Source of the DNA: Malachius bipustulatus
Taxonomy: Eukaryota > Arthropoda > Insecta > Coleoptera > Melyridae
Assembly: GCA_910589415.1 (NCBI GenBank)
Contig: OU342637.1
Coordinates: 39,648,162-39,712,161, forward strand
Direction: 5' to 3'
Length of the DNA: 64,000 nt
The first letter of the stretch is position 1; every line of letters starts with the position of its first letter. Below, one piece after another: positions 2,867 through 24,942 of the stretch. A program made the position numbers and the translations under genes. The notes under the pieces were generated by a model, which was not told the DNA's origin, did no database searches, and was given only the letters and a program-made list of their open reading frames with translations.

Positions 2867-2882
2867 GGCCCTGAAAAGGGCC
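2867..2882 (-). terminator. Histone-type 3' stem-loop of the interrupted 59-codon gene
   Basis: Minus-strand GGCCCTTTTCAGGGCC matches the metazoan replication-dependent histone mRNA stem-loop: six-base stem, UUUC loop. It is preceded by CCAAATAACAAAC and followed by ACAAAATT, the A-rich flanks expected of a stem-loop-binding-protein site. It lies 24 nt after the TGA at 2907-2909. Confidence 0.85.
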
Positions 2883-2906
2883 GTTTGTTATTTGGGAGAA
2901 AATCTC

Positions 2907-2956
2907 TCAAGACCACTCAAGACGCACGATAGCTTGCGTCATGAAGTAGAGCCGCG
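2907..2956 (-). pseudogene. Small stem-loop gene, 3' third (broken by LTR element)
   Basis: This is the 3' coding piece of a minus-strand gene whose 5' two-thirds lie at 13926-14039 and 11044-11065. It encodes the C-terminal residues ending ..RLEWS and a TGA stop, followed by the histone-type stem-loop at 2867. The piece is bounded by CGCG (2953-2956), which is repeated at 11044-11047 on the other side of the LTR element. If one copy of each target duplication is removed, the reading frame stays open across both insertions. That supports this being one former gene of about 59 codons. Function is unknown. Confidence 0.7.
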
Positions 2957-3277
2957 AGATAAATTCGGGTAATCGAATTTGTTTATAAAAAAAACTTTAT
3001 TAGTTTTTTATTACAATTAAAAATTAAAATTACATAATAAGTTTACGATGCTAGTAAAACTTATGAGCTAACTCAAACTGTTAAGGCTGGACAGCAAAGC
3101 TAAACTGAATTATTCTATCTTACCTAGGTCTAACAATAAGAAAATGCCTAATTAACACTATTATAAATATAGTTCATCCTGATGTCATACTTTAGAGAAC
3201 ACATCCTGGGAAATGCAACGTTGCTGGAAAGCACTGCAGTTGTCACCTTATCCGGTTGTTATGGTAGATATATAACT
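2957..3277 (-). repeat. 3' LTR of the errantivirus-like element
   Basis: 321 bp, identical by eye to 10723-11043. On the minus strand it starts AGTTATATATCTACC and ends CCCGAATTTATCT. It is preceded on the minus strand by the purine-rich CCGGAGG tract at about 3278-3284 and bordered by the CGCG duplication at 2953-2956. Confidence 0.93.
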
Positions 3278-3307
3278 CCTCCGGCGTCAGAGTAAAATTT
3301 AGGGTTC

Positions 3308-4939
3308 CTAAATTTTCATGTTGATGTCCTCAAGGCGGAATGCTTCCGGCTCAGCTTCCTCAGGAACTGGTTTGTCTTCCAGATTTCGGCGTCTAATCTT
3401 CCATAATGAAACACAAATTAGGATGGTTATTATTACATACAAGACGATGGTCCAAACACTCGTCGATGTATGTATTCTGGGAGGCTCAATTTCACTTATT
3501 AATTTCCTCTGGTGTTGAAGTTGTATTTTGGTCGATTGGAGTTCATCCAAACTGATTGATTCCAATTCGATCGGTGTCATGTGTGATTGTTTCATGGAAG
3601 TTATCTTTGGTAAATTGATGGTTGGCAATGATAGTTGATACGTCGTGTGGATCTCGCTGTGATATGATGTCAATGTTTTCTTATTTATTTTCAGTTGACA
3701 ACCTTCAGGAATGTCGACTAAGTAGCTTCCTTCTAGGGATGTAGTTTCTCGGTTTTTATTACATTCGTATTGAACTATTGATTGGGAAGGTGAGATAATT
3801 ATCCACTTGGTTGCGGTCAACTTTTGGAGTTTAACATTATTAATTGATACAGGGTGTTGTTCACAATTTTCGTAGTTGGAGGTGAAGTGGACCAGCTGAA
3901 TTTCACAGGGGCTGCTTGGATTGACTTGGTTCATTGTTTGGCTGTTACAAAGGTATTCACCGGGTCGAGCTTCTTGACAAGGTGAATCGTGTAGGTTGTA
4001 ATTTTCATCATTAAGGGCGAGGTATTTACTTCGAGGAATTATTATTGAATAACTGGCATTGGGAAGATGGTTGATAGGAAATGCATATAGGTGGTAGTAG
4101 TTGTAGGACTGTGACTCGACTAGTGGTATTTCAAGAACGAATACTAACTTTTCGTTTTTGTAATAGCTTTTTATAGTGATTATTTCTTCATAAAAGGCTA
4201 TATTTTCTGCATTGACTTGATAAGGTAGGTCGATGTCGAACTCATTGATTTTACCAAGCTCAATTAGCAAGTCTTCAGTTTCTAGTATAGAAGGGTGCAT
4301 TGTTCTTAATCTAGCGAATGTTATTGCATTTACCAATGTTTCTAAAATGTTTTTGATATTCGTTACTTCAGTTATCAATTGTATCAGAATCATTTGTATG
4401 TTCAAAGTATTTTCCAATCGAGTTTGCCTCAATTCGTCTTCCGTTAGTGCTAAGCTTATTATTTCTAAGCGTTTGTCAATTTTATTTTGATTACTTACCA
4501 AGGTATGTACAGTTTGATTAAATTTATCAATAGCTTCCTCGGTTAGCGATATTTGATTGTCAATAATAGTTTTTAATTTATCTTGATTAGACGATAGTTG
4601 GCTAATCGCTGCATCATATCGCTCAGCATCTTCAGCATCTAAATTGCCGGTAATCGCTTTAAAAACTGATCCTAATCCGTTAACTAAACCTCGCTTTTTA
4701 CGAAAGGTTATGGTTGCAGGTGGAATTATTTGCTTGATGGTTTTTTCTGTATCTCCTATTTGATGGGAAAGGATATTTTGGTAGTTATGCAATTCATCAC
4801 TTATTAGGTCTTTAAAATTTTGATTCTCAGATAACTCTGTTATTTGTTGAAATTGATTGTTTATCGACATGTATCCGTTTAGCAAGGGTGTTAAAGTTAT
4901 TACTCTAATGAGGCTCCATTTGTCTACAGCATTTTGCAT
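3308..4939 (-). CDS. env: Env-like glycoprotein ORF of the LTR element
   Basis: A 543-residue ORF in the third position of the element, as expected for the envelope of insect errantiviruses, which is related to baculovirus F proteins. A furin-type basic site RKKR lies at residues 80-83 and is followed by a glycine-rich hydrophobic stretch that would be the fusion peptide. A heptad-rich region follows at about 100-200, and cysteine-containing ectodomain at about 310-410. One transmembrane segment at about residues 500-520 leads to a short basic tail. The N-terminus is only weakly signal-like; in this family the env message is normally spliced, so the true start may lie in another exon. The ORF looks intact. 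Whether it gives infectivity cannot be judged from sequence. Confidence 0.85.
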   Translation of the reverse strand: MQNAVDKWSLIRVITLTPLLNGYMSINNQFQQITELSENQNFKDLISDELHNYQNILSHQIGDTEKTIKQIIPPATITFRKKRGLVNGLGSVFKAITGNLDAEDAERYDAAISQLSSNQDKLKTIIDNQISLTEEAIDKFNQTVHTLVSNQNKIDKRLEIISLALTEDELRQTRLENTLNIQMILIQLITEVTNIKNILETLVNAITFARLRTMHPSILETEDLLIELGKINEFDIDLPYQVNAENIAFYEEIITIKSYYKNEKLVFVLEIPLVESQSYNYYHLYAFPINHLPNASYSIIIPRSKYLALNDENYNLHDSPCQEARPGEYLCNSQTMNQVNPSSPCEIQLVHFTSNYENCEQHPVSINNVKLQKLTATKWIIISPSQSIVQYECNKNRETTSLEGSYLVDIPEGCQLKINKKTLTSYHSEIHTTYQLSLPTINLPKITSMKQSHMTPIELESISLDELQSTKIQLQHQRKLISEIEPPRIHTSTSVWTIVLYVIITILICVSLWKIRRRNLEDKPVPEEAEPEAFRLEDINMKI

Positions 4940-4992
4940 ATTGCCAATCTTGAGTGGTAATAGACCGGGATTGTTATTGATTTTTTCGAATT

Positions 4993-7900
4993 CTATCTTT
5001 TGTCCTTGGACGTAGATACAGAGGGTTTGCCTGTAACAGGAGGCCGTTTTAGATTACGTAAATGTCGTTTGGATATTTGCTTATTTTTTCTAAGCAGAGC
5101 TACTTTTTTATCATTTACTTTAACTAATTCGAAAGGTCCTTCAAATTTAGGATTATTTTTATTTCGTTTATCGACTTTAGCATAAACTTGACTTTGATTT
5201 TGAAATAGATCAGAATCATCTTTGGTGTTGGTAATTGTTTTTAATTTATTTTTCTCAATATTTTCCTTAACCTTATCATACATTAATTTCAATTTATTTT
5301 TGTGTGAAACCAAATATTCTCGTAGAAGATTTTGATTATCAACTGTATCATAGATATCTCTGGTGGAAGTGTGACCAGTTATTATCTCTAGAGGTGTGAA
5401 ATTTGTTGATGAATGAATGGTATGATTGTAGGCCATAAGGGCATAGTTCATAAGATGTGAGATTGGTTCTTTCTTATAGGTTTGACGTAAAATTCGAATA
5501 TGTTCGATTAGAGTGGAATGTAATCGCTCGATAGGTCCATTAGAATTTGGATTTTTGGGCGTGGTGAAGTGAATTTTGATTTTATGCAATTCCATTAACT
5601 GCTTGATAGTTTCAGTACGAAACTCAGTTCCTGAATCTGTTGTTATTTGTTCTGGAGTTCCATAGTAAGTGAAATACTGAATAAAAGCATTTGCAGTTTC
5701 TGTAGGGTTTTTACTGGTTATCGGAATTGCTTGACCTAATTTTGAAAACACATCAACGATTGTCAAAAATGTTTGATTTTCGATTACGAAAGTGTCTGAG
5801 TGTAAGATTTGAAATGGCTTACTTGGTGTCTCAGTTAACATTAGGGGAATGTTGGGTGGATTACGATCGTATTTTGCACGTCTGCATATTTCGCAGTTGT
5901 TAATGAAGTCGGACACCTTCTCACGCATATTTACAAAATAATATTTATTCGATATTTGCTTTAACGTCTCTACTATACCTCTGTGATTGGTTTTGCCTTC
6001 GTGATAATTAGTTATCACTTCATTAATGTCTTCCTCGTCTGCTAAAGGAATTCGGTGTTTTGGACAGCTAATAATAATGGGTGCGTTGTTATTAAATATT
6101 TCGACATATACAGCACAGAAATCTTGATAAAGTTTTTCTGTTTCGAAATTAAAATAATATCGTTTGTTCGAGGTGGTGTATTCCTTTAAGAAATTTATTA
6201 TATGCTGTCTATTATTTTCTCGAGGAATCTGAACTAAATATTTATTTTGATTATAGATTTTTATGTGTTTGACAGGACGGGGATTGTGATGCACAGCTGA
6301 TATATAATATTGGTTTGGTTGTTTTTCAATTGCATCTTCCGATATTTGAATGCCTGTTTTTGGTTCTACATTGATTTGCGAGTGGTCGCTGTCTTGTAAA
6401 TCATCGTGCTGTTGCACAGGTTCTATCGATGGAGGTGTTTTCGATTTATTGATAATTTCGCTCAAAGGAATATCATCTGATTCCGATGTACTGGGAATTT
6501 CTACTGGAATAAAAGAGAAGTCTGGGGGAGTAGCTGGTGGTTGTATATTACTTTCTCGGACTTTCAAGATTTCTTCTAAAGGGGGTGTATTTAATTCTCG
6601 CTCTAAGTCTTCGAGTGGTCTTTCATTTTTGTCTACGTTGTTAATTATTGACGAATTTTCGTCTTCAAATGCGTTTACTTGAATGCGAGATAATGCATCT
6701 GCATTACAGTTTAAAGATCCCTTTTTATAGATTATCTCGTAATCGTACTCTTCTAATTTTAATCTCCAGCGAGTTAATTTTGAGTTCGCCGGGTCCTTCG
6801 ATTTCATCAGCCAGACTAAAGGGCGATGGTCTGTGTAAATGTAAAATTTACGACCATACAAATAAGGGCGAAAGTACTTGGTAGCCCAAACTATGGCTAA
6901 TAGTTCTTTTTGATAAGCCGGATATCTTTGTTCCGTTTCGTTGAGCGTCCTAGATGCATAACTGATAGGTTTATCACTACCTACCGGCCCTTGTGAGAGC
7001 ACAGCCCCTAACGCAATATCAGATGCGTCCGTGGTCAAAAGGAACGGTTTAGTAAAATCTGGGTATTGCAAAATAGGATCATTCATTAAGATGTTTTTAC
7101 AAGTTTCGAAAGCTTCAAGGAATGGTAAGTCGTGGGTAATGGTGGCGTTTTTCTTGAGACAACGAGTTAAGGGTTTTGTTAATTTACCGAAATCTTTAAT
7201 AAATTTTCGATAATATCCCACTAGACCAAGGAAACCTTTAATTTCCTTTCTAGTTTTTGGAAGTGGATAGTTTTTTACTGCCTTAACCTTTTCAGGGTTA
7301 GGTTTTACTCCGTCAGCTGTTATGACGTGCCCTAAGTAAGTTACTTCACGTCTCAAAAATTCGCTTTTGTCAAGTTGAATTTTGAGATTAGCTTGTCTCA
7401 GTCTCTGGAATACTTCTTCAAGTCGTTCAAGATGTTCTTGAAGTGACGTACTAAAGATGATGATGTCATCTAAGTAAGTGAAGCATTTTTCATTTTGAAT
7501 GCCTCTCAAGATGTTGTCCATAACCCTCTGAAAGGTTGCAGGAGCATTCTTGAGGCCAAAAGGCATTCGCCTGTACTCATAATGACCGCCTTCAGTACTG
7601 AATGCTGTCTTTTCAATATCCTCTTCGGACATCTCAATTTGATGATATCCGGAGGCTAAGTCGAGTGTGGTGTAATATTGACTACGGCCTAATTTATCTA
7701 GAATATCGGATATGTTGGGGAGAGGATATTTGTCTCCAATAGTTTGCTCATTAAGTCGTCGATAATCAATGACCATACGATATTTTCGTTTGCCACTGGC
7801 ATCGACCTTTTTGGGAACGACCAAAACTGGACAGCTCCAAGGACTGCAGCTTGGTTGAATTATTTTCTGTTTCAACAAGTCGTCAACTTGTTTTTTGACT

Positions 7901-8844
7901 TCTTGTTGTTGGGCTTGGGGTAAACGATACGATTTTAAATAGACTGGGTTCGGATTAGAAAGTCTGATAGAATGTTTAACTTGATTGGAAAAAGTTAATG
8001 GAACACCTTCGCAGTAAAAAATGTCTTTATATTCACGACACAGCTGCTGAATGCATTGCTTTTCTTCGGCGTTCATGTGATCGAGTCTTAGATTATTTAA
8101 ATTTTGAAATTTCAAACTTTCAATTTCGATGTCATCATTATCGTTATCTACCAAGTCGGTTTGATTTTCAAAATAATTTAATTCGTGAGTAGTGATAGGC
8201 TCTACTTGAATGGGGGAATTAAATGTTACATTTTCTGGATTTTCATTGCTGTTTAAGATCGTTGCATAAGCGAAATTGTCTTTTGAAATTTTTACTAATG
8301 ATCCTGGGATTTCAACTCCCGGTTTGACAATTATTTTTGGAATAATTCCGGTTTCGGTGGTACATGAAACAGGTATTTTAATTATTTTTTCAGTTCTCGC
8401 TTCTACATCGATTTGATATAAGGGTATTTTCTGGTTAGGTTTATTACCTAGAGGTTTAGAAATATGTTCATTGGGTAAATGTAATGGAATATTTGCTGTT
8501 CTGGTAATAAGACGTTTGTTCTTAAAATCTATCGTAGCTCCTAATTGTTTCAAAAGATCAGTTCCAATTAATCCATGATATTGATCGTTAATATCAAATA
8601 CGTAAAATTTGAATTTGACATTACCTGTGTTAAAAATAGCTGGTAACGGAATTTTTGCTACTTCATTGTGAATACTCGTCTGATGTACAGACTTGATCTG
8701 AAATGGTTCGTTTTCAATAAATTTAGAATAATATTTATGAGCTAAATATTCACATAATAAAGATTTCATGCTACCAGTATCGATCATGAATCGCAAATTT
8801 AAAGTAGGAATGACAATATAGGGGAGTTTTGGATGATTTTCCAA
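4993..8844 (-). CDS. pol: Gypsy Pol polyprotein (protease, RT, RNase H, integrase)
   Basis: About 1283 residues without a stop. The aspartic protease motif DTG is at about residues 22-24. The reverse transcriptase follows, with its YLDD box near residue 455, then RNase H with the TDAS motif and the terminal NADALSRI block. The integrase has an H-H-C-C zinc-binding region (CEIC..AKYD) and DDE residues in the HSDTF, TDSGTEF and IERLHS blocks. The first codon of the open frame is TTG, not ATG. The frame is offset from gag, so Pol is probably made by ribosomal frameshifting from gag near 8856. All catalytic blocks look intact. Confidence 0.92.
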   Translation of the reverse strand: MENHPKLPYIVIPTLNLRFMIDTGSMKSLLCEYLAHKYYSKFIENEPFQIKSVHQTSIHNEVAKIPLPAIFNTGNVKFKFYVFDINDQYHGLIGTDLLKQLGATIDFKNKRLITRTANIPLHLPNEHISKPLGNKPNQKIPLYQIDVEARTEKIIKIPVSCTTETGIIPKIIVKPGVEIPGSLVKISKDNFAYATILNSNENPENVTFNSPIQVEPITTHELNYFENQTDLVDNDNDDIEIESLKFQNLNNLRLDHMNAEEKQCIQQLCREYKDIFYCEGVPLTFSNQVKHSIRLSNPNPVYLKSYRLPQAQQQEVKKQVDDLLKQKIIQPSCSPWSCPVLVVPKKVDASGKRKYRMVIDYRRLNEQTIGDKYPLPNISDILDKLGRSQYYTTLDLASGYHQIEMSEEDIEKTAFSTEGGHYEYRRMPFGLKNAPATFQRVMDNILRGIQNEKCFTYLDDIIIFSTSLQEHLERLEEVFQRLRQANLKIQLDKSEFLRREVTYLGHVITADGVKPNPEKVKAVKNYPLPKTRKEIKGFLGLVGYYRKFIKDFGKLTKPLTRCLKKNATITHDLPFLEAFETCKNILMNDPILQYPDFTKPFLLTTDASDIALGAVLSQGPVGSDKPISYASRTLNETEQRYPAYQKELLAIVWATKYFRPYLYGRKFYIYTDHRPLVWLMKSKDPANSKLTRWRLKLEEYDYEIIYKKGSLNCNADALSRIQVNAFEDENSSIINNVDKNERPLEDLERELNTPPLEEILKVRESNIQPPATPPDFSFIPVEIPSTSESDDIPLSEIINKSKTPPSIEPVQQHDDLQDSDHSQINVEPKTGIQISEDAIEKQPNQYYISAVHHNPRPVKHIKIYNQNKYLVQIPRENNRQHIINFLKEYTTSNKRYYFNFETEKLYQDFCAVYVEIFNNNAPIIISCPKHRIPLADEEDINEVITNYHEGKTNHRGIVETLKQISNKYYFVNMREKVSDFINNCEICRRAKYDRNPPNIPLMLTETPSKPFQILHSDTFVIENQTFLTIVDVFSKLGQAIPITSKNPTETANAFIQYFTYYGTPEQITTDSGTEFRTETIKQLMELHKIKIHFTTPKNPNSNGPIERLHSTLIEHIRILRQTYKKEPISHLMNYALMAYNHTIHSSTNFTPLEIITGHTSTRDIYDTVDNQNLLREYLVSHKNKLKLMYDKVKENIEKNKLKTITNTKDDSDLFQNQSQVYAKVDKRNKNNPKFEGPFELVKVNDKKVALLRKNKQISKRHLRNLKRPPVTGKPSVSTSKDKR

Positions 8845-8855
8845 ATTTACCTGAA

Positions 8856-10361
8856 CTATGTCTTTTCGTTCAGATTCAAAACCTGGATAAAATTTTGTTC
8901 TATCTCTTCCTCAAGTGGAGGAGAAGGTTCCACATAATTTTGGCTAGTATTCTCGTAATAGGTATTATATTCATCAAAATTTTGCTTGAATTCCTCAAAG
9001 TTTTGCATATCAATCAAGTTTTGATAGGCTTCTGAATTATTTAATTGCTCATGATTTGATGACTCGTCCAAAAAGTTATTATTAACTAACTCATGGGGGA
9101 GGACTTCTTGATGGTATAGTTGTGTTTGGGAATTATTTGGAGCATTTGGGTTTACTCTTACATTTCTTGTGAAATTTCTCGTGGAAGTTTCCATTGGGGT
9201 GAAATTCCTAGTAGAAGTTTCCATTGGGGTTGGTTTAAATGTGGGTTTGTAATTTGGATTTGGCTTAAATGCATTTTGGTTAGAATACCTGAAATTATTT
9301 TGAGAAAATTGTGGGCGAGGAACAAACTGAGGTTTGTTAAATGATTGATTCGAGAAATTTTGATTTGGTCTTTGACCTTGAAATTGCTGAACATTATGAC
9401 CAGCAAATTGCTGCCAATTTGGTTGCCTTTGTGAAAACAGAGGATTATTTACAAAATTATTTGCATTAGCATTATTAAAGTGTCTGTTAGTAACAAATTT
9501 TTGAAATTTATTCCCTTGATTATTAGAAAAATTACTTACTCTATTATGCACATTTTGCATTTGTTTCATTTGTTTTTCACCATACTGAAAATTTTCTTCT
9601 TCCATCACAAGTGCCATTGCTTGCTCTAGATGGGCTGGTTTTTGTATTCTGACTGCTAAACCTAATTGACCGTACAGACCATGCAAATATGTCTGTAGCG
9701 CCATTTTATCATAAATTTGATTTTTAACTAAACGAGTAGCTTCGTCATTGACAGTTAATCTAAGTTTTGTTTGAAGTACGCTTCGAATATCTTGAATACG
9801 CATTCCAAATTGATAGGGGGTTTCTTTAGGATCGGGTTTTAATAACATAAGGTCTCTAGCTAAACAATCTTCGTCTCTTTGATCTGAAAAATATTGCTCT
9901 AGGAGAGCTTTGATACGAGGCCAATTAATAGCATCCTCTCTACTTCCTATTAAAGTTTTTGCTCTACCTTCTAATTTATTAATAATTATCCTAAGAATCC
10001 ACTGATTTTTGGGATTTTGAATGTTAACTTTGTCTACAAATGTGTCTATTAAATTTTCACATGCTGAAATAAAAAGTGCAAGGGTAGATTGATCCCCATC
10101 GTACATTGGTATTGCATTAACATGATAAGTTTGTAGAGAAAGTTCTGCCATTATTGAATTATCAATTGGATTGTTTGAATTTGAAACAGAATTATTACTT
10201 TCTACTACTTGATTAGTATTTTCTAATACTTGACTATTATTACCAATTTGAGCTTGTAAACTCAACTGAGCTGCTAATTGCAACTTAGCAGGCGACAAAT
10301 AAAATTTCTTAGGCTTAGTTTGTATTACGTTTTGAGCTTCCTGCTCGTCAGAGTCGGACAT
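8856..10361 (-). CDS. gag: Gypsy Gag protein
   Basis: 501 residues starting at an ATG a few hundred bases after the 5' LTR. The N-terminal 70 residues are polar and asparagine/serine-rich. A capsid-like helical region lies at about 75-275, containing YQFGMRIQDIRS and a GLYGQLGLAVRI segment. The C-terminal half is rich in N, Q and F. No CCHC zinc knuckle is present, which is usual for errantivirus Gag. A short repeat (PMETSTRNFT, twice) lies near 9171-9240. The homologous Gag of the second element is at 26541-28025. Confidence 0.9.
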   Translation of the reverse strand: MSDSDEQEAQNVIQTKPKKFYLSPAKLQLAAQLSLQAQIGNNSQVLENTNQVVESNNSVSNSNNPIDNSIMAELSLQTYHVNAIPMYDGDQSTLALFISACENLIDTFVDKVNIQNPKNQWILRIIINKLEGRAKTLIGSREDAINWPRIKALLEQYFSDQRDEDCLARDLMLLKPDPKETPYQFGMRIQDIRSVLQTKLRLTVNDEATRLVKNQIYDKMALQTYLHGLYGQLGLAVRIQKPAHLEQAMALVMEEENFQYGEKQMKQMQNVHNRVSNFSNNQGNKFQKFVTNRHFNNANANNFVNNPLFSQRQPNWQQFAGHNVQQFQGQRPNQNFSNQSFNKPQFVPRPQFSQNNFRYSNQNAFKPNPNYKPTFKPTPMETSTRNFTPMETSTRNFTRNVRVNPNAPNNSQTQLYHQEVLPHELVNNNFLDESSNHEQLNNSEAYQNLIDMQNFEEFKQNFDEYNTYYENTSQNYVEPSPPLEEEIEQNFIQVLNLNEKT

Positions 10362-10703
10362 TTATTTACAGGATAAAATAAAAGACAGGAATGATGAAAA
10401 TTACTTACAGTAGTATCATCGCTGTGAAGATCATCTTCTTCTTCTTCTTGGTCTCAGCAGGTAGATGCTCTCGGCAGGTAGCACTGAACTTTATTTAATC
10501 ACTTGCAGTTATTTTAATTATTTATTTATTAACACACTGGTCTTAGTTTTATTTTTAAATTACAATTATTAAAATGATTATTTAATCACGACGTTAGGTT
10601 GAACGATTTTTGTTTCTTCCTTTGATTCTTGATGGCGGTGACTTTTAACGATTTAAATCGATGCGTATTAATCACGATTTTTGTTGAAAAACACACAAAA
10701 TCA

Positions 10704-10722
10704 CCATCCTACCGACTGCGCC
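10704..10722 (-). other. Primer-binding site of the LTR element
   Basis: Immediately after the 5' LTR on the minus strand the sequence reads GGCGCAGTCGGTAGGATGG. This is the TGGCGCAGTCGG-type primer site typical of the 17.6/297/gypsy group. The second element has the near-identical TGGCGCAGTCAGTAGG at 26236. Confidence 0.75.
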
Positions 10723-11043
10723 AGATAAATTCGGGTAATCGAATTTGTTTATAAAAAAAACTTTATTAGTTTTTTATTACAATTAAAAATTAAAATTACA
10801 TAATAAGTTTACGATGCTAGTAAAACTTATGAGCTAACTCAAACTGTTAAGGCTGGACAGCAAAGCTAAACTGAATTATTCTATCTTACCTAGGTCTAAC
10901 AATAAGAAAATGCCTAATTAACACTATTATAAATATAGTTCATCCTGATGTCATACTTTAGAGAACACATCCTGGGAAATGCAACGTTGCTGGAAAGCAC
11001 TGCAGTTGTCACCTTATCCGGTTGTTATGGTAGATATATAACT
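10723..11043 (-). repeat. 5' LTR of the errantivirus-like element
   Basis: 321 bp, identical by eye to the LTR at 2957-3277. It is bordered on the outside by CGCG (11044-11047), the other half of the 4-bp target duplication. Confidence 0.93.
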
Positions 11044-11065
11044 CGCGCCACCACATCTATTTTCA
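11044..11065 (-). pseudogene. Small stem-loop gene, middle 22-nt piece
   Basis: A 22-nt sliver between the LTR element and the terminal-inverted-repeat element at 11066. It carries the CGCG duplication of the LTR element at one end and CA, repeated at 13926-13927, at the other. Read on the minus strand it adds K-I-D-V-V-A to the interrupted ORF in frame with the pieces on both sides. Confidence 0.65.
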
Positions 11066-11516
11066 CACTGAGAAAACAGTTTATTAGGTATAAAGCAGGA
11101 GATTGTTTAAAATTTTACAGCATCAATGTTAATAAATTTTGTAAATCAAAGCTCAGTTCGTTTGTTTGAAGGACAGGTTTTTAAATCATAACGGCAAATC
11201 CCGATTCGGAACGTTGAAGTTCAACGGGGGATTCGTTAGGCAACATTAGTTAACTGTTAACAACGATTTCTTAATGGTAACATTTTTAATTTTTGCGAAT
11301 TTAATAATAGTTTTATACTTTAATTATGAAAGAGGTTGTTTTATATATAAAAAATATCGTCAGTTAAAACTGATATAAACGTGGTCTTTTAAAATATGAA
11401 AATCAAATCGGTAACTGTTAACCAAGTTCTATTACATTACAATCATTCGTTAACAACAATAATGTCGAGTTGTTCCAGAAGCAGTTTGTTTATATTTAGT
11501 TTGCTACCTAATACTA

Positions 11517-12732
11517 TACAGGGTGTCCCGTAAGTAATGGTCCGTGGTGAAATGGGAGATTCTTGGTTTAAAAATATTACGATCTGACACTACTTGCTCT
11601 AACAAAATCTTGATAATAAAAAAGATACAGGGTGGCAAAGTTGAGATTTAAAAATTTTATTTTCAAAATATCTCGAAAAATTGTACAGGTACGAACGTGA
11701 AAACTTGGGGATAGATGTTTTACGGTATGAGAAATCATAATTTGATATCCATGTCGATGTATTTTATAGAGGGCGCCACTTAGGTCATGTTGACGACGTA
11801 AATGAACACATAACTTTTTTATCCTTCAGGATATCGCGCATTTTATTGTGAAATATTAAAACTACATCATTGATGAGAAAAAAAGGTATACCGGTTGTCA
11901 GTCTCAAAAGTTAGTGGTTTTCGAGATAATTGACAGTTAATGATTTTCTCTACTGATACTGTTCAGAATTTTTTGCTTACTGCTAGTAGTTGGAAAATTA
12001 AAAAATGCCGAGACATTATAATTTTTCAAATTCAGATAAGAGAGATATGATTTCTCTTTATTGCAAACAAAACTTTAATGGGCAAGCTGCGAAACGAGAA
12101 TACCTGCCACGATATCCAAACAGACTGCAACCTGGTAATCGACTATTTCAGAATCTGTATAGGAATTTAGGTGAATATGGTTCATTTGTTTTTTTTTTTA
12201 ATATGTCAAAGTGAAAAATGTTTAATTGCCAAAATGCTGGTTATTATCACAACCTACTGCATTAAGATTTCGGATAATAAAAAAAAATAGAAATAATGCA
12301 GGAGATTATTAAAACGTGATTGTCTCGAAAACCACTAACTTTTGAGACTGACAACCAGTATACCTTTTTTTCTCATCAATGATGTAGTTTTAATATTTCA
12401 CAATAAAATGCGCGATATCCTGAAGGATAAAAAAGTTATGTGTTCATTTACGTCGTCAACATGACCTAAGTGGCGCCCTCTATAAAATACATCGACATGG
12501 ATATCAAATTATGATTTCTCATACCGTAAAACATCTATCCCCAAGTTTTCACGTTCGTACCTGTACAATTTTTCGAGATATTTTGAAAATAAAATTTTTA
12601 AATCTCAACTTTGCCACCCTGTATCTTTTTTATTATCAAGATTTTGTTAGAGCAAGTAGTGTCAGATCGTAATATTTTTAAACCAAGAATCTCCCATTTC
12701 ACCACGGACCATTACTTACGGGACACCCTGTA
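11517..12732. mobile_element. Palindromic MITE, ACAGGGTGTCCCGTAAGTAA family, with a captured DUF4817 fragment
   Basis: The ends are ACAGGGTGTCCCGTAAGTAA and its complement, flanked by TA. The arms of about 430 bases pair almost perfectly (11517-11945 with about 12310-12732). The unpaired loop of about 360 bases carries the DUF4817-like coding fragment at 12005-12214. Internal ACAGGGTGG motifs near 11630 and 12618 add a second set of ends. Confidence 0.88.
12005..12214 (+). pseudogene. DUF4817-like N-terminal helix-turn-helix fragment
   Basis: Starts at an ATG and encodes 69 residues. The first 50 resemble the DUF4817 domain found at the N-terminus of many insect mariner-like transposase genes: SDKRDMISLYCKQNF, then AAKREYLPRYP, then a FQNLYRNLGEYGSF block. 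The ORF then runs into low-complexity T-rich sequence and stops, with no DDE domain. It lies exactly in the loop of a palindromic MITE. A related fragment sits in another hairpin loop at 50067-50180. Confidence 0.6.
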
Positions 12733-13925
12733 TACGATTCAAGGGATTAAAACAGTTCCATCTCTTCATCAGTCTTCAACCATATCCGGACGTGTTGAGA
12801 AGTGATGACGCTTTTCGTTTTGTTTGTGCAGGAAAATGAGTGATGTTTAGTGACTTGGAAGTTTTTTTTAAGAACGCCAAACTGCTACATTTATATCCTG
12901 TATTTGCAGGTAAGGGTGTCTTTCGTTTATGCATATAGGTACTTATGTTTTGTATTTACGATAACGGTAAAGTAATTTTTATTCTGTTCTTTGCGAAAAT
13001 GTGCTATGATCCTTTGCTGCTTACATTTATAACATATTATGATTACTAAAGATTATAATGTTTCAGAATACCGACACTATACCTACCTACAAAATTTATT
13101 GGCATCGCTCATCCCTTACAAGCGAAAATTTACACAAAAAAATTCAAGGGAAAGGAATGGAAACCTACCCTAAGAGAAATAAGAAATGGATTGTTAGTGG
13201 TGGAGGCTTTTTAAGCGACTTATAAGGAAGTGTTTTTTTTTTCTATCTGTAAGTCCGATATTTTTATATATTATAGTACAGAAACAAAGAAGACTGTTTA
13301 TTTATTTATTTATTTATATGTTATCCAAATGATAATATTTATTTCGATTTTTATATTCGAGTTATGTATGATGTTAATGTTACCTATGATGGTTAATACC
13401 AAATATCAATAAAATTATCTTGACGAAAAATGTCTTTGTATCTTTTCCTATTTTATTTTCAGTGATTTTCATTATATTGAAAGGAAGAAATCAACTCTTT
13501 AAAATTTAACAAATATTCTTTAATTGTCCAGTGATATGGCAACATATATATTTTCTATTTAACAAGATTTAACATCCACCTTAGTTAATATTAAGTAATC
13601 AGTTAACTATTAACTGATGACAGTATAAGGTCTAAAATTCCAATCATCCAGAACAACATATTCGCTAATATTAAAGGTATTAAGATTTTTGTTAACGATT
13701 GGCCATCTATAAATCAAAACAGCGTAGTTTTTTAGTAAGAAACTTTTTAAATATGAACAAATATATTGTCTTAATATGAAGTTAACGACATGTTACATTT
13801 ATGCAGGCTACCCCCAACGAATTACTGCTTGTATTGAAATATACGTTCCTTCCGCCGTATCCGAAAGAATACTTTATTTGAACTAAACGAGCCTGCGTTA
13901 ATGTCAATAAACTGTTTTCTCAGTG

Positions 13926-14039: not shown

Positions 14040-14092
14040 CTTCTGTCGGAGTCTTAGGACAATCTGAAGTTTTCTTACTGGTCCCTACTATA

Positions 14093-15295: not shown

Positions 15296-15514
15296 ATGAA
15301 CACTGAAGATCTCGCGGAACTTAATACCCTCCGGAAGAACGTGCGAGCTATAACTCTTCTCGTTCAACTTCAAAGGTTACTCATGGAGAAAGCAGACCTT
15401 CTTCAGATAGCAAGAGGAGGACTACCTCAATATATGAAAGTTATTGAGCGGATAAATTTAATCAACAAACAAATGGACCAGTATGAAGCGGAATTGGACT
15501 CGCTTCAAAGTTAG
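15296..15514 (+). CDS. 72-residue coiled-coil protein with histone-type mRNA end
   Basis: Intronless ORF with ATG 55 nt after a strong TATA box and a stem-loop 32 nt after the stop. The predicted product is acidic to neutral, leucine-rich and almost wholly helical: two helices (about residues 4-36 and 45-70) separated by a short GGLPQY turn, so probably a helical hairpin or dimerising coiled coil. The pattern resembles the 79-residue product at 24703-24942 (LRK/LRN near residue 12-16, LLMEK/MLEK near 30-36), which suggests distant paralogy. It is convergent with 16068-16358. The histone-type ending suggests expression linked to S phase or to oogenesis/embryo (inference). No known family is recognised. 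Confidence 0.75.
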   Translation: MNTEDLAELNTLRKNVRAITLLVQLQRLLMEKADLLQIARGGLPQYMKVIERINLINKQMDQYEAELDSLQS

Positions 15515-15546: not shown

Positions 15547-15562
15547 GGCTCTTTTCAGGGCC
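15547..15562 (+). terminator. Histone-type 3' stem-loop of the 72-residue gene
   Basis: GGCTCTTTTCAGGGCC: six-base stem with one G-U pair, UUUC loop. A-rich sequence precedes it and ATTAATAC follows. It is 32 nt after the stop at 15514. A TTTTGGTTCTCC motif lies about 16 nt downstream. Confidence 0.85.
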
Positions 15563-16029: not shown

Positions 16030-16045
16030 GGCCCTGAAAAGGGCC
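16030..16045 (-). terminator. Histone-type 3' stem-loop of the 96-residue gene
   Basis: Minus-strand GGCCCTTTTCAGGGCC, preceded by CTCCAAAAATAAAACA and followed by AAAAAACTTTAATAAGC, 22 nt after the TAA at 16068. The downstream flank closely matches that of the stem-loop at 2867, including a shared TTGGTTCTTGAAA motif. Confidence 0.88.
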
Positions 16046-16067: not shown

Positions 16068-16358
16068 TTATGCCGCTAGCAAATTCTCCAGATGATTGCT
16101 GGCTCGTCGTAGCCTTCTTCTAGAGATACGAATCAGGCGCTCGATTTTATGTATGTCTTCACTAAGCTTTGAGATATGTGCTCTCATCTCCATTTCTTCA
16201 GTATGTTCTCCATCAAGAATCTCTAGTAGCACTGAATAGTAAAGTTCGTATGTTAGAGAGTAGAGTCTCAAAAAATTATCGGTTTCTTGTGATAGTCGAC
16301 AAATTCTTAGGCGGTATTTCCTTATTCTTCTAACTAGACTCGGGCCTTCGCGCTCCAT
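16068..16358 (-). CDS. 96-residue helical protein with histone-type mRNA end
   Basis: Intronless ORF. The ATG has a strong CACCATGG context, 59 nt after a TATA box. The first helix is basic (VRRIRKYRLRI) and enters a tyrosine- and leucine-rich stretch. A short acidic loop (EHTEEMEM) then leads to a second long helix with basic repeats (RRRLRRASNH). The overall plan is the two-helix hairpin seen in its neighbours. The stem-loop lies 22 nt after the stop, and there is no polyadenylation signal at the expected distance. The gene is convergent with 15296-15514, and its 3' flank is paralogous to that of the broken gene at 2907. No database family is recognised. Confidence 0.75.
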   Translation of the reverse strand: MEREGPSLVRRIRKYRLRICRLSQETDNFLRLYSLTYELYYSVLLEILDGEHTEEMEMRAHISKLSEDIHKIERLIRISRRRLRRASNHLENLLAA

Positions 16359-17262: not shown

Positions 17263-19443
17263 GGGCGATACCGAATTGGGCGAAGAATTTTGTTATTCAC
17301 TAATCCCAGGGGTCAATTGGGCGAGAAACGAGAAACTAGGGGATTATAAGAGATAAGTGGACAGACAAGAAATACATGTGCGGCCTTGCCCATATACAGG
17401 GTGAATTATAAAAAACGCCCCAAGCGATAACTCCCTTAATTTTGAAGATATGACAAAACTTTTTTATACAAAGTGGCGCCGTTTATTATCATCTATATTT
17501 TGAGATAAACGCTCGATCAACACAACTTCCTGTTTAACCGGAAGTAACATCAACTTCGGGTTTTTAAATAGAACACCCTGTAAAACTTTATATTTTTTAA
17601 ATGTCTGAAGAAATCTAATACAGGTGGTTTTCATCATTGGAATTTAGATTGAGCGGTTTATGAGTTATAAACAAGTGAAAATCGAAAATTTTCAACTTCA
17701 AAGCAGCGTAGAACTAGAACGGCTCAAGATTTCTAAAAACGGTTTACATGTTCTTATCTTAACTTTTGACATAGTATCCTACTATGTGGTTTAAATTTTA
17801 ATACAGGGTGATGAAAAATCTGATAATTTTCATCACCCTGTATTAAAATTTAAACCACATAGTAGGATACTATGTGAAAAGTTAAGATAGGGACATGTAA
17901 ACCGTTTTTAGATATCTTGAGCCGTTCTAGTTCTACGCTGCTTTGAAGTTGAAAATTTTCGATTTTCACTTGTTTATAACTCATAAACCGCTCAATTTAA
18001 ATTCCAATGGTGAAAACCACCTGTATTAGATTTCTTCAGACATTTAAAAAATATAAAGTTTTACAGGGTGTTCTATTTAAAAACCCGAAGTTGATGTTAC
18101 TTCCGGTTAAACAGGAAGTTGTGTTGATCGAGCGTTTATCTCAAAATATAGATGATAATAAACGGCGCCACTTTGTATAAAAAAGTTTTGTCATATCTTC
18201 AAAATTAACGGAGTTATCGCTTGGGGCGTTTTTTATAATTCACCCTGTATATAGCAGTGTTGCCAGATTTATTTTCAATAACTGCTACTTGTTCGACACT
18301 AAAGGGTGGCCCATGAACAATAGTTTTTTATCATTTACTATATTCAAGGGATTGTTGAATAGTATTAACGAATTATGATTTATTGTTTAGTAACAAAATC
18401 ATGACCTTTCGTGTTTTCCATATTTTCTACTGAAAACTCACCATGTTTTTAAATCTAAGCAATTCCAATGCCAAATATCTCAGGAATTTACTACTTCTAA
18501 TCAATAAAATTTAAAAATTAAACTTCTCTAATAATCCACATTTATTTTCAAAACTAAAGCGCATATAGGTAGAGGTATATTAATCATTCTCTCCCATACA
18601 AAAAATGTGTTAATTCTATTATCGCATACCTATAGGATAAGGAACTTTCATATGTTGAAATGATTAATTTTAAATATTGAATCCCCTAATTATTTGACAG
18701 AGAAATATTAAATGAATAATTTTTCAAGAATTAAAACAAAAGTCTTTTCTGCTATATTAATTATTAAGTATGCAATCGAATCGTTCAATTGATCGTTTTC
18801 GTGAAAATTAGGAAACATTTTTGACTAAAATAATATTAGGGAGTTCCGAGGGGAGTTCTAACACAACTTTCTATTATTTCTTCTATTCTTCCGGTGGAGT
18901 ACCTATAGGTAACTCCAGTATAGGTAATTCTCACAGCCCTTTCAAATGTGTAAACAAAAAATAAGAAATTTGAAACAAACCGAATGACTTCTGCAAACAA
19001 ATACTTTTCTAAAGTATAATTATTGCAACATGAAATTGAAAACATCGTGAAAATTTATCATGATTTTCTCAAAGGCAATAACTTAGTCAATGGAAAATTA
19101 TGATAAATCAATTCATAGTAATTGATTGCTTTTTATGGATTATTTGAGTAGGTATAGCAGCGACGTTTACTTTTCTATTAATGTTTCATGTTTTTGCTGT
19201 ATAGGTGTAGTATAAAATAATTGTAAATGCACTAAGGGCTTGATGTATTTGATAGAACTTAAAAAAAATAATACATCAAGTATTAATTTTTTTTTTCCAT
19301 TTTATTTAACGTAGCTATACAAGAGCATGCAAATAACTCAACGGTATTTAAAAATTCCTTCGCCCAAGTGAGCTCTAGGATTATAAGCACCCCCGTCGTG
19401 TCGAAGGGTCACTCAGGTAATTTCGCCTAATTGAGAAACGCCG
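17263..19443. mobile_element. TIR element of the GGGCGATACC family with 9-bp target duplication (copy 1)
   Basis: It starts GGGCGATACCGAATTGGGCG and ends in the complement of CGGCGTTTCTCAATT.GGCG, an imperfect inverted repeat of about 22 bp. It is flanked by GACCAGAAT on both sides (17254-17262 and 19444-19452). Subterminal AATTGGGCGA motifs recur in both orientations. No transposase ORF is present. The 9-bp duplication suggests a Mutator-like element; an 8-bp hAT-type duplication is the alternative. Copies 2 and 3 are at 54736-56764 and 52126-52892 (reversed). Confidence 0.7.
17394..18249. mobile_element. Near-perfect 850-bp palindrome nested in the GGGCGATACC element
   Basis: The ends are ACAGGGTGAATTATAAAAAA and its complement, flanked by TATA. 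The arms of about 410 bases pair with very few mismatches. The axis near 17824-17830 lies between ACAGGGTGATGAAAA and its complement. It inserted at a TATATA site that is empty in the copy at 52126-52892. Confidence 0.88.
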
Positions 19444-20779: not shown

Positions 20780-21730
20780 AAGCTCTGTTTGAGAGAGTTG
20801 CTTTTCAAATTAAAAAACCAGAAAAACAATTTTTAATTGTCAGAAAAAATTGTCAAGAAGTTAAAGTAAAAATCAAACTTTTATTTGTCTTCAATGATTA
20901 TTCATCTAGGTTTTTCAAAATCTTTTAAATTAGCAGGAATCGTATTTTCAAGGGTTTTAAATATTTTTGTGTTTTTGTCTATTTAAACTACAATATTAGT
21001 GATATAGATGATAGTGATAAAAAGATACCAATGAAACAATTTAGTATTCTAGAATTTTAATTATTTCACGTGAATAAAAAGTTATAATGATTTAAGCGCA
21101 TTTTATAATAAATATAAGTACCACTACTAACACGGTTTCGCCAAATTTTTTTTTACAAATTTTGCTTATATTTGTGAATTATTGGATAGAAGTTAAACAA
21201 AAAGCTGAAAACTTGTCTTTCAACTTAAAGTCCCAGATACCAAAATTGTCAGTACCTATAGTTTCCAATAATAAATCATTAATGATAATTGTGACGTAAA
21301 AGTAATATATTTTAGGAACCTTCTAATGAAAATAGCATACAAAGATCCAACTTTAAACTATCAATTTTTAGGTTCGATAATTATTATTGGGGCTCTAATC
21401 AATTTTTTTATTGCATAAGCTATAGCAAGTATGTATAATGTATAATATACCAATAATAAAACGGCTATGATGGATAGGCATTATGCAAACAACATTGGTA
21501 TCAATTGAAAAAATAAAATTATATCTAAAAAATCTGTAGATGAACAGATCTTTTCATTGTTCTTTTTTTTTAATTGTTAGCAAGACCTAATTATATCTGT
21601 TATTATTTTGTTGGCCCTAAAAAAGGCCGGTTTTTGTATAAAACTTTTAATTTAAGACGTGTCCTCTTTTGTCTTCGTGTCATTTTTCAGTTTCGCCTTA
21701 ACTTTATTCAACTCGGACAGCTCTTGTTGA
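20780..21730. repeat. Segmental duplication, copy 1 (with 23127-24244)
   Basis: From CAAGCTCTGTTTGAGAGAGT through the stem-loop to the 3' half of the small gene, this block matches 23127-24244 at about 90% by eye with small indels. It comprises the long 3' flank of a small stem-loop gene and its C-terminal coding half. The short open stretch near its start (ending ..RFFKIF) is conserved in both copies. That is expected of a recent duplication and is not evidence of coding. Confidence 0.8.
21613..21628 (-). terminator. Variant histone-type stem-loop (frameshifted paralog)
   Basis: Minus-strand GGCCTTTTTTAGGGCC, with a weaker stem (one G-U pair) and a T-run loop, preceded by ATACAAAAACC. It lies 23 nt after the TAA at 21652. 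Confidence 0.7.
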
Positions 21731-21917
21731 AATCGCTCTTTTCCCTCATTCTCTCGCCTGCGGTAGCTCAAGCCGCATCGACTAACATTCTCTCCGTCCA
21801 GCGGTGGCTTAAGCCGTTCGGACTTCAATTCGCGTTTCTCAGCCGACTCGAGGCTTCTCATTTCTTACCTTCTTTTCCCCGGCGTCTCTCGCCTTTACTA
21901 TCGTCAACTTTCATCAT
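21652..21917 (-). pseudogene. Paralog of the 84-residue gene, apparently frameshifted
   Basis: The last 30 codons (GKERFQQELSEL to KEDTS) are almost the same as those of 24149-24403. The upper ORF starts at ATG 21917 or 21914 (MKVDD.., basic) and stops at TGA. The lower ORF starts at an ATG overlapping that stop (21861) and runs to the TAA at 21652. A single 1-nt indel would account for the split, and the N-terminal half is strongly diverged and more GC-rich. A weak TATA-like ATTATA lies at 21995-22000, about 80 nt upstream. The stem-loop is 23 nt after the stop. The 69-codon lower ORF could still be translated, so broken status is likely but not certain. Confidence 0.6.
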
Positions 21918-22777: not shown

Positions 22778-22793
22778 GGCCCTGAAAAGGGCC
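22778..22793 (-). terminator. Histone-type 3' stem-loop of the 38-residue gene
   Basis: Minus-strand GGCCCTTTTCAGGGCC preceded by CTTGAAAAATACC and followed by AAAAATATTTTCG, 31 nt after the TAA at 22825. Confidence 0.87.
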
Positions 22794-22824: not shown

Positions 22825-22941
22825 TTAGTATTCAACGGTTACACGACGAAGAAGCTCTGTCCCCTTTTCGTCAGTTTCCTCAATCATGGACTCCAGCTCT
22901 CGTATTGCTCGGATTACTTTTTGAACCTTAAGCTCTTCCAT
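22825..22941 (-). CDS. 38-residue helical peptide with histone-type mRNA end
   Basis: The ATG at 22941 opens 38 codons and a TAA. The product is a single amphipathic helix (VQKVIRAIRELESMIEE) followed by a charged turn and a short LLRRVTVEY tail. A TATA box lies about 80 nt upstream, and a perfect stem-loop 31 nt after the stop frames it as a complete transcription unit despite the tiny ORF. It may be the shortest intact member of the cluster family or a gene trimmed at its 5' end. No homolog is recognised. Confidence 0.65.
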   Translation of the reverse strand: MEELKVQKVIRAIRELESMIEETDEKGTELLRRVTVEY

Positions 22942-23126: not shown

Positions 23127-24244
23127 AGCTCTGTTTGAGAGAGTTGCTTTTCAAATTAAAAAACCAGAAAAACATTTTTTAATTGTCAGAAAAAGTTGTC
23201 AAGAAGTTAAAGTAAAAATCAAACTTTTATTTGTCTTCAATGATTACACATCTAGGTTTTTCAAAATCTTTTAAATTAGAAGGAATCGTATTTTCAAGGG
23301 TTACATTCTATCAAGGGTATATACATTTTTTCTGATTTTGTATATTTACACCACAATATTAGTGGTAGATGACCGTAAATTATTGATTCTGTATGTAAAA
23401 AGATACCATTGAAATATACAGTATATAATTAATAAGTATAAATATAATAAGTATAAATAATAATAAGTTTAGAATGTATAGTAATATATAGTATATATTA
23501 TATAACTATAAATATATAGTATATATTATGGTTCTATTATTTCATGTGAATAAAAAGTTATAATGATTTAAGCGCATGTTCTAATAAATGTAAGTACTTA
23601 CCACTACTGACACGTTTTCGTCAAAAAAACTTTCACAAATTTTGTTTTTATTTGTGAATTATTGGATAAGGGTTAAATAAAAAACATGGCCAAAAAATTG
23701 GTTTTCAACTTAAAGTCCCAGACACCAAAGTTGTCTGTAGTTTCATGGAATAAATCGTTAATGATAATAATTGTGACTTAAAAGTAATATATTTTGGGAA
23801 CTTTCTTGAAAGTAGCATACAAAGATCCAACTATCAATAATTTAAACTCGATTTAAACTATCAATTTTAAGGTTCGATAATTATTGGGGCTCTCATCAAT
23901 TTTTTTTATTGAATAAGTTGTAACAAGTATGCATAATGTATAATATACCAATAATAAAACGGCTATGATGGATGGTATATTATACAAACAAAATTGGTAT
24001 CAATTGAAAAAATAAAATAATATCTAAAAAATCTGTAGACGAACAGAACTTTTCATTGTTCTCTTTTTTTAATTGTTAGCAAGAGCTAATTGTCTGTTAT
24101 AATTTTGTTGGCCCTAAAAAGGGCCGGTTTTTGTATAAAACTTCTAATTTAAGAAGTGTCCTCTTTTGTCGTCGTGTCATTTTTCAGTCTCGCCTTAACT
24201 TTTTTCAACTCGGACAGCTCTTGTTGAAGTCGCTCTTTTCCCTT
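23127..24244. repeat. Segmental duplication, copy 2 (with 20780-21730)
   Basis: Starts CAAGCTCTGTTTGAGAGAGT and matches copy 1 through to the C-terminal half of the gene at 24149. It differs by substitutions and by an AT-rich insertion around 23400-23530. Confidence 0.8.
24110..24125 (-). terminator. Histone-type stem-loop of the 84-residue gene
   Basis: Minus-strand GGCCCTTTTTAGGGCC: perfect six-base stem, loop UUUU instead of UUUC. It is preceded by ATACAAAAACC and followed by AACAAAATT, 23 nt after the TAA at 24149. Confidence 0.8.
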
Positions 24245-24403
24245 CTTGTGCATTGTCTCGACCATGAAAAGTTTCCAGAGATTAACATCTTTGCCGGAGT
24301 TCATCAACGTCGCTTTCTTTTTCAAAGTTGATTCTAAGTTGCGAATACTGGAATTCACGGCGCTGAACGTGGCGAGAGCTTCTCTCTTCTCTCCGATCTT
24401 CAT
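24149..24403 (-). CDS. 84-residue coiled-coil protein with histone-type mRNA end
   Basis: I start it at the ATG at 24403. The frame is open a few codons further upstream, but only from a TTG. Intronless. The product has a helical N-terminal half (SIRNLESTLKKKATL) and a classic coiled-coil C-terminal half (RLQQELSELKKVKARLKND) with a polar TTTKEDTS tail. A TATA box lies 83 nt upstream and a stem-loop 23 nt downstream. It is divergent from 24703-24942 with a 300-bp spacer. A frameshifted paralog is at 21652-21917, and the last 30 residues are the best-conserved part. No known family is recognised. Confidence 0.75.
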   Translation of the reverse strand: MKIGEKREALATFSAVNSSIRNLESTLKKKATLMNSGKDVNLWKLFMVETMHKKGKERLQQELSELKKVKARLKNDTTTKEDTS

Positions 24404-24485
24404 TGTTTTTATATTCAAAGAAGTACTGCGGTGGTTAACAGATCAGGTATTTTGGAGAAGTGATTCGATTTCCCAGTTATGATTC

Positions 24486-24492
24486 TTTTATA
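24486..24492 (-). promoter_or_regulatory. TATA box of the 84-residue gene
   Basis: Minus-strand GGCTATAAAAGAATCATAAC, 83 nt upstream of the ATG at 24403. Confidence 0.75.
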
Positions 24493-24539
24493 GCCTACCC
24501 AACTTAGAGCTCGTTTTCGTAGGCCCTTCTGGAACTGTG

Positions 24540-24627
24540 CGTGCAGTTCCTCCTCCAGCCGCGCTCTCATTGGTACATGCCTTGCGTGCTCAGCTGACAA
24601 ATCAGCCCCTCTAGTTTCGCATATAAG
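24540..24627 (+). promoter_or_regulatory. Shared promoter spacer with TATA box of the 79-residue gene
   Basis: TTCGCATATAAGCG at 24617-24630 is a TATA box about 77 nt upstream of the ATG at 24703. CTCATTGGTAC (inverted CCAAT) and GACAAATCAGCCCC lie just upstream in a locally GC-rich stretch. The TATA box of the divergent 84-residue gene is only about 130 bp away. Confidence 0.7.
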
Positions 24628-24702
24628 CGAAGAGTTGACCGCTTGCTGCACAGACAATTAACAACAGCCAAGAGCCATTAACATTAACTGATACCGCAAA
24701 CC

Positions 24703-24942
24703 ATGGACAATGAAAAGCGGAAGAAGATACGCGAAGTGTTAAATCTACGCAACAAGCTTCAAGCAGTTATCGAGAAGAAAAAATATATGTTGGAGAAAAT
24801 AAAGCAACATAAAGCAATAGATCTGAGAAAACCGCTGATGCTCGATCGACTCTACAAAATTTATCGGCCAAAACTCGATCAGCTTGTCTCAGAACTTGGC
24901 CTTGATAAGAACAAAACAACGAAAACGGAGAACAAAGACTAA
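24703..24942 (+). CDS. 79-residue basic coiled-coil protein of the cluster
   Basis: ATG in good context (ACCATGGAC), intronless, ending in TAA at 24942. It is lysine-rich with two helices, about residues 2-36 (LRNKLQAVIEKKKYMLEKI) and 42-68 (LDRLYKIYRPKLDQLVSELG), and a charged tail. This is the same two-helix plan as 15296-15514. TATA box 77 nt upstream; divergent from 24149-24403. No GGCCC stem-loop is found in the following 100 nt, so the 3' end differs from that of most members. Function is unknown; a small DNA- or RNA-associated or cytoskeletal helical hairpin is only a guess. Confidence 0.65.
   Translation: MDNEKRKKIREVLNLRNKLQAVIEKKKYMLEKIKQHKAIDLRKPLMLDRLYKIYRPKLDQLVSELGLDKNKTTKTENKD

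Follow-up and report, generated by a model that had tools for sequence, protein, structure and literature searches.

To our knowledge, almost no genes other than histone genes carry the histone 3' stem-loop. Selfish or arms-race amplification has a parallel in Drosophila, in Stellate and its suppressor; Stellate genes are polyadenylated and casein-kinase-like and are not known to carry the histone stem-loop. In C. elegans, his-39 and his-69 are histone variants that retain the stem-loop, according to part of PMC12803260. A literature search that included parts of PMC7026596 and PMC12803260 found no non-histone gene family with this stem-loop.

We analysed a 64,000-nucleotide stretch of Malachius bipustulatus DNA (the window; C14:39.648-39.712 Mb, in a genome of 544 Mb), for which a cluster of non-histone micro-genes with histone-type 3' ends had been predicted. 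All six predicted stem-loops (2867, 15547, 16030, 21613, 22778 and 24110) were found; 15547 is the only one read on the plus strand, the other five being on the minus strand. Rfam Histone3 scored 6/6 in a 26-kb search (E 9.9e-8 to 0.024), with 2867 alone reaching the gathering score. The looser loop pattern of the original prediction, allowing two mismatches, gave 47 matches against a chance mean of 40 (sd 7), a number not above chance. An ATG-initiated ORF, 38-96 codons long and ending 22-32 nt before the loop, had been proposed in every case; it was present at five of the six but not at 2867, near which there was no ORF of at least 25 aa; as background, ORFs of at least 38 codons ended 15-40 nt upstream at 626/18,130 positions. 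Proposed TATA boxes were matched by TATA-like sites 58-89 nt upstream of the ATG in four of the five window ORFs, with none found for the ORF before 21613. Nor did every loop follow an intact gene: B, A and D2 are intact, whereas C is split, one D2 copy is truncated and E is deleted in part.

These features belong to a single, partly decayed copy of a repeated multigene unit, in which the genes are arranged as C- B+ A- E- D2- D1+. The loop at 2867 is the 3' end of a 59-aa C gene on the minus strand, which two insertions split. Compared with an intact C copy (C14:39622827-39623003), the 3' part (2865-2956, comprising the last codons at 2956-2910, stop, 3' UTR and stem-loop) is 98.9% identical over 92 bp, a 22-bp middle piece (11044-11065) is 100% identical, and the 5' part (13926-14099, comprising 60 nt upstream and the first 38 codons at 14039-13926) is 100% identical over 174 bp. 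The C stem-loop, GGCCCTTTTCAGGGCC at 2882-2867, scored 37.5 bits with Rfam Histone3. One insertion is a minus-strand gypsy-type element (2957-11043) with gag, pol and env-like frames and LTRs that are 99.7% identical over 326 bp, flanked by CGCG at 2953-2956 and 11044-11047; the second (11066-13925) contains a 416-bp inverted repeat (99.5%). The surroundings are rich in transposons, and at another place in the genome a histone-type loop comes after a transposase-like frame as well.

The remaining five loops were recovered by both pattern and Rfam Histone3. The intact B gene (15296-15514, plus strand, 72 aa) has TATA-like sites 58-62 nt before its ATG and a stop 32 nt before its loop, GGCTCTTTTCAGGGCC (15547-15562, plus). 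The intact A gene (16068-16358, minus, 96 aa), predicted to form a two-helix hairpin, ends in GGCCCTTTTCAGGGCC (16030-16045, minus). The ORF at 21652-21861 (minus), with loop GGCCTTTTTTAGGGCC at 21613-21628 (minus), matches D2 in its last 31 codons only; it is a shortened copy of the 3' portion of the ORF before 24110, differs from it by five nonsynonymous and one synonymous changes, and is a probable pseudogene. E (22825-22941, minus; loop GGCCCTTTTCAGGGCC at 22778-22793, minus) carries a 93-nt in-frame deletion that leaves 38 aa, against 69 in a full-length copy, with a TATA 86 nt before its ATG. D2 (24149-24403, minus, 84 aa) is intact and ends in GGCCCTTTTTAGGGCC (24110-24125, minus). Head to head with it lies D1 (24703-24942, plus, 79 aa), which has no stem-loop: there is a 16-nt gap at the place where the loop lies in its paralogue at C14:27643073. 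D1 has a relative outside this genome (P0001, 73% identical).

The same gene order recurs, with more copies of the unit near 39.57-39.64 and 27.57-27.64 Mb on C14, and both clusters contain additional full-length B copies. All six families of the unit are small and intronless, the frame being open from the ATG to the stop that precedes the loop. More distant relatives of the unit families (A', B' and D') also exist, and tandem arrays are formed by two of them: A' with 39 matches in units of about 1276 bp, eight of the 39 carrying an in-frame stop, and B' with units of about 980 bp spread over 266 kb. The A family has 54 genome matches. Several micro-gene copies are broken, both in the window and at other loci. 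The stem-loop micro-genes of the window are real and part of a larger genome-wide set than the window alone reveals, and the core of the original prediction is supported at many further loci of this genome.

Across 24 genomic stretches we counted 70 stem-loops, 48 of which end a full-length micro-gene. In these 48 genes the loop and its flank are kept and the 3' UTRs are short. Most families show a constant or almost constant stop-to-loop distance, and 46 of the 48 genes have a TATA-like site no more than 100 nt from the ATG. This retention bears on the possibility that the loops are genuine remnants of histone-type 3' ends, on genes that are now mostly silent or use ordinary poly(A) signals. 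The loopless D1 of the window and the broken copies would suit such decay, but we regard it as quite unlikely given the loop, flank and spacing preserved in all 48 full-length genes and a downstream element, TTRGTTCTYG, that lies 18-24 nt after the loop and is common to eight families (0/500 shuffles). The three histone genes of this genome that were compared match the element poorly (5-7 of 10 positions). Loops of nine micro-gene families and these three histone genes were paired in 72/72 cells; two pairs had changed on both sides, a number reached in 76/500 shuffles. An SLBP domain is encoded on C13. No U7 snRNA was found at E ≤ 1, in a search that scored 65/167,196 candidates and was positive in 6/14 prokaryote controls.

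The products had been described as having no histone fold, and our searches agree: 11 proteins gave no Pfam match above cut-off, PDB sequences gave none below E 0.04, and A and D1 are predicted helical hairpins. Foldseek against PDB and viral models likewise returned nothing at E ≤ 0.001. Histone or linker-histone genes that have diverged strongly while keeping their histone promoters and ends would account for a unit that, like the histone quintet, combines several genes in both orientations with TATA-like sites and loops; yet the predicted two-helix hairpins, the empty searches and the true histone genes present on C2 make this a very improbable explanation. A single superfamily uniting all families was also rejected, since among the window ORFs only D1, D2 and the D2 copy exceeded shuffles (hhalign probability 11% for D1 v D2, 0.3% for D1 v B). 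With relatives added, A-A' and D1-D2-D' kinship was clear; E-D' and D1-B' similarity (z 3.3-5.0) may be due to coiled-coil composition, whereas for B-B' the similarity was weak (z 2.1). The suggested origin in a virus or symbiont found no support, relatives being absent from the collections tried: viral contigs held none of D1, A, A' or B', and prokaryote genomes none of A', the family searched there. The exact 16-base loop occurred in 65 viral-contig stretches, but so short a match says nothing about kinship when 2.9 million contigs are searched.

Substitution patterns differed between families. C (pN/pS 0.04) and A' (0.15) are clearly under purifying selection, and B gave 0.51. Purifying selection is not clearly indicated for A (1.15), B' (1.08), or the E and D' pairs, in which the only differences were nonsynonymous (2 and 3, respectively). 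Near-neutral differences in A and B', tandem amplification, in-frame stops in some A' units, the transposon-rich surroundings and the transposase-like frame with its loop are what might be expected if the arrayed micro-genes were a selfish or arms-race system, distorting germ-line transmission or countering distortion, whose histone ending would allow them to be expressed in dividing germ cells. We consider this unlikely, as C and A' are strongly conserved and the system consists of six co-arranged families, not of a single amplified gene.

The micro-genes probably form a multigene system that has the organisation of replication-dependent histone genes but encodes other proteins, a histone-style supply of abundant small helical proteins coupled to replication or to the egg. 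We favour this reading because of the significant Rfam scores, the full-length genes ended by 48/70 loops, their near-fixed gaps and TATA-like sites, the recurrent gene order, the A' and B' arrays, the shared downstream element, the invariant loop pairing, the SLBP domain, the purifying selection on C and A', and the D1 relative. Counted against it were the missing U7 snRNA match, the poor element match in histone genes, the pN/pS values of A, B and B', the nonsynonymous-only E and D' pairs, the A' stops, the covariation shuffles and the loopless window D1. By extension from the histone pathway, SLBP would bind the micro-gene loop and the U7 snRNP would cut the transcript a few nucleotides downstream of it; the mRNAs would lack poly(A) and would peak in S phase or, alternatively, be stockpiled by nurse cells and oocytes to supply the early embryo. 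Expressed by this route from many gene copies, small helical-hairpin and basic proteins would be delivered in short, histone-like bursts. These may have a role in chromatin, egg or embryo, as had been speculated; more specifically, and tentatively, they could be structural partners of the division apparatus, or of chromosomes during replication or in the early embryo. Whether they represent a second class of metazoan mRNAs ending in the histone stem-loop is, in our judgement, evenly balanced: such a class would comprise at least six co-arranged micro-gene families, tied through SLBP to DNA replication or the egg, and serve a structural component needed in bulk for chromosomes or cell division in a lineage of insects. 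Since tiny non-histone gene families, some of them arrayed, apparently end in the histone stem-loop, the rule that reserves it for histones may need revision. If so, one may ask which other products have to be synthesised in step with DNA, and orphan proteins would gain a testable time and place of action.

Like metazoan replication-dependent histone genes, the micro-genes are intronless, with a TATA-like site, a short 3' UTR and, shortly after the stop codon, a GGNNCU-loop-AGNNCC stem-loop whose flanks match those of H4, H2B and H2A in this genome; they also share the grouping of several genes per unit and tandem arrays. Unlike histone genes, they encode products without a histone fold or known family, and their downstream element could not be clearly recognised in the three histone genes used for comparison. 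They resemble his-39 and his-69 in placing the stem-loop on genes outside the standard replication-dependent set, although those genes still encode histones and the micro-genes do not. With Stellate-type germ-line arrays they share short intronless genes in homogeneous tandem arrays, but in contrast to Stellate they comprise six unrelated families that carry the histone stem-loop.

All six histone-type stem-loops of the original prediction were located at 2867, 15547, 16030, 21613, 22778 and 24110 of the window, as it had placed them. Each scored against the Rfam Histone3 model (E 9.9 × 10−8 to 0.024 in a 26-kb search), with one of the six reaching the gathering score, and no additional match was found in 24900–64000 at E ≤ 10. 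An ORF of 38–96 codons had been proposed before every loop; this held for five, while the loop at 2867 follows the 3' piece of a split gene. The stop codons of those five ORFs lay 32, 22, 23, 31 and 23 nt upstream of the loop, compared with a background of 626 of 18,130 positions having an ORF of at least 38 codons ending 15–40 nt upstream. Four of the five ORFs had the proposed TATA-like site and one did not (background, 289 of 2,129 ATGs with such a site 40–120 nt upstream). The six loops are not independent, as those at 21613 and 24110 are copies of each other and those at 2867 and 16030 have a common 3' flank.

The window lies at C14:39648162–39712161 of a genome that comprises 544,256,285 bases in 52 contigs and whose H4, H2A and H2B genes, like the gypsy element with an env-like frame, have an insect-like appearance. 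A genome-wide Histone3 search, in which 75 of 115,895 candidates were scored, gave 72 matches (one of 14 prokaryote controls also gave a match), and the same small proteins recurred among matches outside contig C2 and in the neighbourhoods read. Modelling the stem-loop genome-wide, as originally suggested, found non-histone micro-genes with loops repeatedly outside the window. The pattern GGYYCTTYTHAGRRCC had 228 forward and 429 reverse matches, a count that takes in true histones and dispersed copies, versus 41 and 44 when its letters were put in reverse order. In 24 stretches of the genome (the window and 23 others), 70 loops passed filters chosen once the families were known: 48 accompanied a full-length family member, 10 a partial one and three a histone gene, and nine had no ORF. 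Two of these nine were at stretch ends, with the gene position beyond the sequence read, six were at decayed copies identified by tblastn or blastn, and the ninth (C2:56277314) had no family member. The gap from stop codon to loop was 22 nt in 7/7 genes of family A, 28 nt in 6/6 of its diverged relative A', 32 nt in 8/9 and 33 nt in 1/9 of B, 30 nt in 21/23 and 42 nt in 2/23 of B', 24, 33 and 34 nt in C, 22 nt in 2/2 of D1, 23 nt in 3/3 of D2, 27 and 29 nt in D', and 31 nt in 3/3 of E. Of the 48 full-length members, 46 had a TATA-like site at most 100 nt from the ATG; the array copies among the 48 are not independent.

Two of the diverged families are arrayed. A' (94–95 aa, 39–43% identity to A) had 39 matches at C14:23.274–23.325 Mb, mostly spaced by ~1276 bp; a single in-frame stop interrupts eight of these. 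One more A' copy lies on contig C6. A and A' together had 54 matches; A itself had nine copies in clusters on C14, the contig carrying the window (one with a stop), three more distant copies on C6 (two with stops) and two fragments. The A/A' matches include C6 copies at 4.88, 4.91 and 7.51 Mb. B' (76 aa) occurred on contig C7 in units of ~980 bp, read at 6.0697, 6.200–6.201, 6.304–6.323 and 6.335–6.336 Mb; if continuous over 266 kb, the array would hold ~270 units. D' (77 aa) had two copies, one adjoining each A' locus, and a search with it also matched two D1 copies. This architecture of genes, loops and arrays is directly observed.

We compared these loops with those of true histone genes. 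H4, H2A and H2B with their own loops, 64, 51 and 113 nt past the stop codon, respectively, were present at C2:61.53 Mb, and many GGTTC- and GGTCC-type loops were among the matches listed at C2:61.17–61.51 Mb. The H2A loop (C2:61533173) was GGCCCTTCTCAGGGCC, with the same stem as the micro-genes, and that of H4 and H2B was GGTTCTTTTCAGAACC. In an alignment of nine micro-gene families with these histone genes, all 72 cells paired; two pairs were changed on both sides, a number reached by 76 of 500 shuffles, and the covariation score was reached by none of 500. In seven families (A, A', B, D1, D2, D' and E) the element TTRGTTCTYG or a near match began 18–20 nt past the loop; in B' the distance was 24 nt. 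The score of this element was reached by 0/500 dinucleotide shuffles (1/200 in an earlier four-family test), with C excluded because the flanks of C and A are almost duplicates; the three histone genes matched 5–7 of its 10 letters. The SLBP RNA-binding domain was found in two adjoining stretches on contig C13 (E 1.8 × 10−11 and 2.2 × 10−8), and no U7 snRNA was found in the genome at E ≤ 1 (65 of 167,196 candidates scored; six of 14 prokaryote controls gave matches). By analogy with the histone pathway, the loop would be bound by SLBP and the messages cleaved through U7 and left without poly(A), with the products perhaps supplied in S phase or maternally.

Selection among copies differed by family. 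From pooled, non-independent pairs, pN/pS was 0.04 in C (three copies; 16 synonymous and two nonsynonymous differences), 0.15 in A' (four distinct sequences), 0.51 in B (seven copies), 1.08 in B' (seven distinct of 20) and 1.15 in A (five copies), and both differences between the two E copies and all three between the two D' copies were nonsynonymous. A' on C14 versus C6 gave dS 0.090 and dN 0.009, D1 of the window versus the copy at 27.64 Mb dS 0.22 and dN 0.15, D1 versus D' dS 1.32 and dN 0.65, and A versus A' dN 0.50 with saturated synonymous sites. On these values, the case for a functional protein is good in C and A', is backed in A and D by similarity over long distances, and is weak in B, B' and E. 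Eleven micro-gene proteins had no Pfam match above cut-off, and A, B and D had no match below E 0.04 among PDB sequences. Structure prediction covered A, a two-helix hairpin predicted without an alignment (pLDDT best 93, worst 64 of five models), and D1, a hairpin predicted with one relative (best 86, worst 71); Foldseek with the predicted A gave only generic helical hairpins. The C protein is short, with many Arg and Lys residues. Outside the genome, D1 had one relative (P0001, 73% identity, on a 1119-bp contig), and a search with A gave none. Our literature search, which did not extend to most subscription journals or to eukaryote databases by name, found no such non-histone stem-loop family, and an earlier description may exist.

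A histone-type 3' end may also be carried by a transposon family, as many dispersed loops of the GGTCCTTTTCAGGACC type are among the matches listed on contigs C1 and C2; one copy was inspected. In the stretch C1:12926700–12927500, a GGTCCTTTTCAGGACC loop at C1:12927236, followed by ACAAC, comes directly after a frame with a resemblance to part of a mariner/Tc1-type transposase. Within the window, a gypsy-type element on the minus strand (2957–11043; gag 8856–10361, pol 4993–8787 and env-like 3308–4939 frames) has CGCG at both flanks; its LTRs share 99.7% identity, which indicates a recent insertion. A second gypsy-like element lies on the plus strand (26541–31494; frames 26541–28025, 28262–29356 and 29656–31494). 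Type I hammerhead-like matches at 47391–47434 and 35595–35639 (E 0.0002 and 0.079) were below the gathering score, as was a mir-2319 model match on both strands of a near-perfect inverted repeat (17785–17859) that is probably the end of a small transposon.

Near C14:27.57–27.64 and 39.57–39.67 Mb the genes repeatedly stand in the order C− B+ A− E− D2− D1+, with other sequence interspersed and some members absent or broken. In the window, C is in three pieces (14099–13926, 11065–11044 and 2956–2865) with 100%, 100% and 98.9% identity to the intact copy at C14:39622827–39623003, so the insertions splitting it look recent; a further ~2.7-kb insertion lies near 64–2812, in its 3' flank. B (15296–15514) and A (16358–16068) are followed by a truncated D2 copy (21861–21652), E with an in-frame deletion of 93 nt (22941–22825), D2 (24403–24149) and D1 (24703–24942), which has a gap at the site where its paralogue carries the loop. 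The start codons of D1 and D2, a head-to-head pair, are separated by 299 bp (24404–24702), a stretch that holds a TATA-like site for each gene and, near D1, an ATTGG box, presumably a CCAAT box. This head-to-head arrangement is reminiscent of divergent histone gene pairs.
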